This document shows, piece by piece, positions 6,323 to 7,055 of a stretch of DNA of 64,000 nt. The notes below the pieces were generated by a model, which was not told the DNA's origin, did no database searches, and saw only the letters and a list, made by a program, of their open reading frames with translations. The position numbers and the translations under genes are program-made. Position 1 is the stretch's first letter. Each line of letters opens with the position of its first letter. Origin of the DNA: Pisolithus tinctorius. Taxonomy: Eukaryota; Basidiomycota; Agaricomycetes; Boletales; Pisolithaceae. The stretch covers positions 1 through 64,000 of the forward strand of contig JANFAH010000084.1 of the NCBI GenBank assembly GCA_024663395.1, given 5' to 3'.

Positions 6323-7055
6323 ATGAGCTCCGCCGATTGGGACAGCAAGACCGTCATTGGATTCAGGGCCAAGGCTCCAAAGGTCGCTAGAAATGCTTCT
6401 GACTTGAACGGTGAGCAACTAGTTCCATATTTGATAGTGAGTCACTTGTACTAATCACCTTGCGCTCATACAGCTGTACGTAGCAAACTTTGTGTATGAC
6501 GAGCTAGTCTGAAGTCTGTTTCAGGCGAGGAGGGCTGGGGCCGTGGTTGCGACGGAGAAGAAGACGACGGCTGGTGGGAACAAGGGTCATACTGGTACGT
6601 TGTGTGGCGCTCGTACATGCTACCTTTTATTTTAATATCAACTTGACTCGATTACCAGGGCCGGATCACCAACGTATAGCCAAGCTTGACCGTGAAAACG
6701 AGGTTGCACCTCCCCCGAAGGTCAACCCCACTGTCGGCAAGGTATGAGGTGCGAGTCATGGTTCCGTGCGTTTTCTTAATTGGGTGTTCGGTTATAGGCT
6801 ATCCAAACTGCGCGCATGGAAAAGAGCATGACGCAGAAGGATCTCGCCCAGAAGACCAACGAGAAGCCGTCAGTTATCCAAGATTATGAATCTGGAAAGG
6901 CCATTCCTAACCCCCAAATCCTCGGTAAATTAGAGAGGGCGCTTGGGGTAAAACTACGTGGTGGGTAAAGCTATCGCTGGTATGTTAACGCCTTACTGAA
7001 TGCAGTTGTAGGCGCCGAAATTGGGAAGAAACTGGAGGGGCCGAAGAAATCATAA
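6323..7055 (+). CDS. MBF1: Multiprotein bridging factor 1, transcriptional coactivator
   Basis: The spliced product is about 149 residues, the family's normal size. It begins MSSADWDSKTVIGFRAKAPK. The conserved block NAARRAGAVVATEKK and the basic stretch KLDRENEVAPPPKVNPTVGK follow. Next comes a Cro/C1-type helix-turn-helix (QTARMEKSMTQKDLAQKTNE, KPSVIQDYESGKAIPNPQIL, KLERALGVKLRG). It ends AEIGKKLEGPKKS. MBF1 bridges sequence-specific activators and TBP, and also limits frameshifting on stalled ribosomes. The invariant NAARR block can be made in frame only if a 2-nt exon (6474-6475) lies between two introns. A single-intron alternative with donor 6437 stays open but inserts nine unrelated residues. 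Confidence 0.9.
6474..6475 (+). other. Predicted 2-nt microexon (CT) of MBF1
   Basis: The first exon ends AAC G at 6410, followed by a GTGAGC donor. An intron with a TACTAAT branch-like site ends in CATACAG at 6473. Bases 6474-6475 are CT, followed at once by a near-perfect GTACGT donor, and that intron ends TTTCAG at 6524. Joining G + CT + GCGAGG gives N-A-A-R-R, which matches the family. Joining 6410 directly to 6525 shifts the frame. Confidence 0.6.

Follow-up and report, generated by a model that had tools for sequence, protein, structure and literature searches.

A predicted two-nucleotide exon in the MBF1 gene of Pisolithus tinctorius

The MBF1 locus and its two haplotypes

The analyzed window, a stretch of 64,000 nucleotides, lies on contig C84 in an assembly of Pisolithus tinctorius with a size of 92.5 Mb. 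It carries an MBF1 gene on the + strand (6323-7055), which starts with the ATG at 6323 and ends with the TAA stop codon at 7053-7055. Translation of the spliced model with five introns resulted in an MBF1 of 149 aa (Table 1). This product matched the Pfam families MBF1 (PF08523, 95.7 bits) and HTH_3 (PF01381, 54 bits), both above the cut-off, and thus belongs to the MBF1/EDF1 family. MBF1 is a ribosome-associated protein. The conserved NAARR block of the product aligned without a gap with the solved MBF1 chain 9f9s, which reads INAARR and which we take to be yeast MBF1; no gap was found across this block in alignments with EDF1 chains either. The sequence GCGAGGAGG begins at 6525, directly 3' of TTTCAG. 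An Rfam scan and a tRNA scan gave no match.

Table 1. Features of the MBF1 gene in the window
Feature	Position	Strand	Remarks
Exon 1	6323..6410	+	88 nt; 3' end in phase 1 (AAC G); translation agrees with P0001
Intron 1	6411..6473	+	63 nt, GTGAGC..ATACAG; both splice sites unchanged in haplotype L002
Rival-model donor GTGAGT	6437..6442	+	intron 6437-6524, 88 nt; yields the insert of the deposited protein P0003
Candidate branch site TACTAAT, intron 1	6449..6455	+	from the sequence; identical in L002
Predicted 2-nt micro-exon CT	6474..6475	+	completes GCT, alanine 30; supported by homologs
Intron 2	6476..6524	+	49 nt, GTACGT..TTTCAG
Weak candidate branch site CTGAA, intron 2	6509..6513	+	putative; CTAAA in the other haplotype
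Exon 3	6525..6594	+	begins GCG AGG AGG (A-R-R)
Intron 3	6595..6658	+	
Exon 4	6659..6741	+	
Intron 4	6742..6797	+	
Exon 5	6798..6960	+	bulk of the HTH domain
Intron 5	6961..7011	+	
Exon 6	7012..7055	+	ends in TAA

The upstream neighbour (5127-5976, + strand) is an FAD-linked oxidase-like gene with short introns, by eye resembling D-lactate dehydrogenases. Pfam FAD-oxidase_C matched 5127-5435 with 29.3 bits, and no family was found on 5591-5848. Further along the window, two adjacent ORFs on the + strand (41950-43398 and 44277-46535), which look alike by eye, each carry a HET (heterokaryon incompatibility) domain with 110 and 106 bits, respectively. Pieces of a gene for the CCR4-NOT scaffold NOT1 lie on the - strand at 52841-53650 and 55643-57412 (Pfam Not1; CNOT1_CAF1_bind, CNOT1_TTP_bind). 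An ORF of 1244 aa at 12713-16444 (- strand) is by eye rich in F-G repeats and nucleoporin-like, and it matched no Pfam family.

Contig C5 carries MBF1 a second time, in a copy here named L002. Five 10-kb pieces of this contig were compared with the window; three matched end to end with 97.8-99.0% identity and two lay beyond the start of the window. The copies on C84 and C5 were taken as two haplotypes, and it is in their DNA that the CT layout was seen directly. L002 keeps the CT, the four surrounding splice-site hexamers and the same protein. Between 6411 and 6524 the two copies differ at four positions (6462, 6487, 6502 and 6511), all of them intronic, and 6411-6461 is identical. Across the gene, the haplotypes differ in 7 of 450 exon nucleotides, with the protein unchanged, and in 9 of 283 intron nucleotides.

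These data bear on the reading that the layout stems from an error in the sequence, or that the allele is decaying and an originally single intron was broken by an indel. A single assembled haplotype could contain an error, and a direct sign of error was not found. The layout is, however, common to both haplotypes, whose exon differences leave the protein intact, and the same junction is garbled in the deposited models of many species (see below). We regard the probability of this reading as practically negligible.

Reading frame and splice signals around the CT

A sequence-only reading had proposed that CT forms an exon of its own between two introns, and all the motifs it named lie where it placed them. 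Only these two nucleotides stand between a canonical AG and a canonical GT (ACAG-CT-GTACGT). We enumerated all models with up to three introns, GT-AG or GC-AG and each at least 30 nt long, within 6390-6530 that keep the frame into AVVATEKK. This gave 61 frame-open models, seven of them with a single intron. The CT-exon model was the only one of the 61 to yield NAARR.

Joining of the three pieces restored both frame and motif, as proposed, and the resulting 149 residues are identical in both haplotypes (149/149) to P0001, the deposited MBF1 of P. tinctorius Marx 270 (source tags ncbi and lgn). The predicted truncation after direct joining of 6410 to 6525 was also borne out, since the frame shifts and the protein ends after 62 aa. 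Use of GTGAGT at 6437 as donor led to a protein of 157 aa.

Two known kinds of complex intron were considered for 6411-6524 and rejected. A stwintron fails in that excision of the whole unit leaves the frame unrestored, with the 62-aa product. Zero-nucleotide recursive splicing at a ratchet point fails in that CT sits between the AG and the GT and the protein depends on it. Neither applies because CT must stay in the mRNA.

Removal of the whole unit as the main or a regulated event, by skipping or as a nested twin intron, with a frameshifted 62-aa product that is perhaps destroyed by NMD, is a separate proposition. Donor 1 and acceptor 2 are each usable, and skipping would indeed give such a product. 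On the other hand, it would destroy a deeply conserved protein, and we consider it extremely unlikely. As a minor isoform the skip product could still exist.

The letters of the region were compared with chance in 20,000 dinucleotide-preserving shuffles of the 114-nt stretch, in which the first and last six bases were fixed. With both introns required to be at least 40 nt long, a bare AG-CN-GT was found in 7.3% of the shuffles, YAG-CN-GTRNG in 0.57% and YAG-CN-GTRNGT in 0.3%. Since the bare arrangement arises this often, the letters alone are suggestive of a CT exon and not conclusive, and the weight of the argument rests on the homologs.

Splice-site strength was judged by a model that was self-trained by expectation-maximisation on 264 kb of genome without transcripts and with training introns of 42-100 nt. 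It gave 162 confident introns, 124 of which were 47-60 nt long. Their commonest donors were GTAAGT (19), GTATGT (17), GTGAGT (15) and GTACGT (14); GTGAGC was found four times. Measured against these introns, donor 2 (42nd percentile) and acceptor 2 (57th) are ordinary, and donor 1 (19th) and acceptor 1 (17th) are below average. The lengths of 63 and 49 nt are within the range of the 162 introns, the first being rather long (at least 63 nt in 34/162). Intron 2 has no perfect CTRAY branch site, and intron 1 contains TACTAAT, a branch-site motif.

The rival model removes a single 88-nt intron from the GTGAGT donor onwards, so that nine extra residues, GEQLVPYLI, replace the first alanine. Its frame is open, the nucleotides from 6411 to 6461 are the same in the second haplotype, and its donor (37th percentile) scores slightly above donor 1. 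Splice signals alone thus do not choose between the two models, because donor 1 and acceptor 1 are weak and the rival donor scores higher. Against the single intron stand its length, reached by only 4 of the 162 introns (at least 88 nt, with training limited to 42-100 nt), and the Pfam MBF1 score, which falls from 95.7 to 78.0 bits with the insert.

The junction in homologous proteins

Homologs were the best 120 of 1420, 1263 and 1348 matches, respectively, in three protein searches, and comprised 223 distinct MBF1 proteins. Ranking by similarity against clean queries favours clean proteins in such a sample. Based on source tags typed by hand from the listings, we separated 134 proteins with an ncbi tag from 89 without (jgi, ena or lgn, the last of which we take to denote Logan; contigs not exceeding 4,348 b). 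Short contigs also carry a few of the proteins with an NCBI record, e.g. P0199 (2,092 b). Because of the short contigs (the longest of 4,348 b), the uninterrupted ORFs and the N-terminal extensions, we infer that the 89 proteins stem from transcripts. Eight of them exceeded 160 aa, with the extra length located at the N-terminus as with read-through of a 5' UTR.

Residues 29-33 were clean, i.e. N followed by A, T, S or V and then ARR, in all 89 short-contig proteins (83 NAARR, 4 NTARR, 1 NVARR and 1 NSARR). In each of them the junction had the same length as in the CT model, and an insert was present in none. The forms NTARR and NSARR would fit a changed last base of exon 1 with an unchanged CT, and NVARR would fit a change of CT to TT.

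This also bears on the single-intron rival. The nine-residue insert which the sequence-only reading had ascribed to the GTGAGT donor was indeed obtained, and it is present in the deposited MBF1 of Pisolithus orientalis (P0003). It was nevertheless absent from 89/89 short-contig homologs. The inserts of annotated relatives vary in length and sequence and often start like a translated donor. The single intron is therefore very unlikely in our judgement. The 62-aa skip product was likewise found in 0/89, although a protein search would hardly find such a product.

The proteins of the NCBI group differed strongly at the same place. Only 65/134 were clean; the other 69 comprised 22 with NGARR, 25 with NG followed by something else than ARR (NG+other), seven with NAV and 15 others that match neither the NG+other nor the NAV pattern. 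This suggests that about half of the sampled NCBI-recorded MBF1 proteins are wrong at one spot. After removal of the 17 proteins placed in Rhizoctonia and Ceratobasidium, ten of which have the NAARR form, 62/117 NCBI proteins were not clean compared to 0/89 of the short-contig group (Fisher p = 5.8e-20, which is descriptive only because the species are related). The NCBI proteins that were also tagged lgn or jgi (P0001, P0006, P0126, P0148 and P0181) were all clean. Off-length models among the 134 were concentrated at the CT junction (42), with 4, 0 and 1 at the other three intron junctions and none in two control segments within exons.

In 22 of the 25 NG+other models the next residue was M, K, E, T or A. 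This is compatible with AAC G being read on into a GTATG, GTAAG, GTGAG, GTACG or GTGCG donor. For P0168, which is among the 22, a plain deletion that ends in the conserved GAVV is an alternative reading. The seven NAV models continue with C (4), S (2) or R (1), compatible with GCT being read on into a GTNNG donor. None of these residues is rare, and matches of both kinds may in part be due to chance. The NAV carriers are Grifola, Boletus edulis, Dentipellis fragilis, Galerina and three Ceratobasidium, presumably of the orders Polyporales, Boletales, Russulales, Agaricales and Cantharellales. The listing gives no species for P0090, P0115 and P0223.

The 22 NGARR models might be read as a genuine G-A-R-R protein. 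This is disfavoured, since none of the 89 short-contig proteins carries a G there; for the same reason these models are probably work-arounds of the annotation, e.g. by a GC donor two bases downstream. In certain species NGARR could in principle be real.

Failures of annotation are also found close to P. tinctorius. Besides P0003, the models P0011 (Pisolithus sp. B1) and P0083 (P. microcarpus) are incomplete. By eye, the short-contig protein P0004 equals P0083 save for the gaps of the latter, and its block is intact. The deposited MBF1 proteins P0080 (Trametes elegans), P0106 (Boletus reticuloceps), P0168 (Mycena rosella) and others have odd or missing residues at the junction and merit re-annotation. 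A search for the MBF1 DNA of relatives gave 64 matching stretches in genome contigs and 73 in viral contigs, none of which encodes a relative.

Taken with the frame and motif analysis, CT is very probably a real and constitutive 2-nt exon of MBF1, with ordinary short introns on either side which would be removed sequentially by intron definition. Judging from the garbled protein models, the same CT-GT layout probably exists in other orders of the Agaricomycetes and predates the diversification of the class. For the orders of the NAV carriers, a shared ancient 2-nt exon would be the simplest account.

Splicing of the predicted exon and comparable systems

With 63 and 49 nt, each of the two introns could be recognised across the intron. 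Over only two nucleotides, the factors bound to the intron 1 acceptor would overlap with those bound to the intron 2 donor. Since the spliceosome cannot occupy both sides of two nucleotides simultaneously, the introns would be excised in succession, in either order. Once intron 1 is gone, the donor of intron 2 would simply follow a 90-nt exon ending in GCT, and in the spliced outcome this GCT would encode the first alanine of NAARR. Recursive splicing, which the sequence-only reading had raised as a possibility, would not be needed; two short introns of the ordinary kind, excised one after the other, would suffice.

It is conceivable, if rather unlikely, that the CT exon was kept since before the Agaricomycetes diversified as a control point, where slow or failed splicing would lead to a premature stop and lower MBF1 in step with the state of the spliceosome.

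If confirmed, the 2-nt exon would belong to a conserved housekeeping gene and would probably be common to many mushrooms kept in the laboratory. It would then be a good system to study how the spliceosome handles an exon too short for binding from both sides. The unusual point is the breadth, i.e. one gene with one 2-nt exon apparently through much of the Agaricomycetes. Moreover, a single junction that is garbled in genome annotations yet clean in transcript-like records may serve as a cheap screen for similar exons.

The following comparisons refer to the available portions of the cited papers. Exons of 1 nt in the plant genes APC11 (including Arabidopsis) and VPS55 have been confirmed by cDNA, RT-PCR and RNA-seq (PMC4674806, PMC8831610). 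Like these, the predicted MBF1 exon is ultra-short, lies between two introns, is essential for the frame, was missed by annotation and appears, by inference, to be conserved in a large clade. It differs in being 2 nt long, fungal, flanked by two very short introns and predicted from sequence. For the APC11 exon of Arabidopsis intron definition and stepwise removal were proposed (PMC4674806), and animal micro-exons were argued to rely on intron definition (PMC8378409).

Among fungi, a 1-nt exon of Fusarium CYP621A is supported by 18 SRA reads and claimed by its authors as the first such fungal exon (PMC12940212). As in MBF1, a fungal ultra-short exon restores a motif conserved across orthologs. 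Fusarium is, however, an ascomycete genus and CYP621A a rarely expressed P450, whereas MBF1 is a housekeeping gene with indirect signs of the exon over much of a basidiomycete class. The same paper (PMC12940212) cites Volfovsky 2003 for exons of 2-5 bp in Arabidopsis, Drosophila and humans. P450 genes of the basidiomycete Phanerochaete likewise have very small exons, there with introns of 45-55 bp, but the shortest exon is 6 bp (PMC1184071).

Stwintrons (PMC9024468, PMC12403724) and recursive splicing (PMC4674806) share with MBF1 the closely apposed introns and the stepwise removal. As we understand the available portions of these papers, both leave no junction nucleotide in the mRNA, whereas the CT of MBF1 must stay.

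Among the matches listed, with subscription journals and bioRxiv outside the search, we found no published 2-nt exon for MBF1 or for any fungus. Queries combining microexon with basidiomycete, Agaricomycetes or the names of orders gave nothing on MBF1 in the titles and abstract starts of the matches listed, which for two of the queries were 15 of 1,896 and 12 of 1,688. As far as their available portions go, the micro-exon of Trichoderma Xlr2 has a length of 20 nt, and in papers on Rhizoctonia AG8 and Cryptococcus the word "microexon" occurs once each, for an aligner setting.
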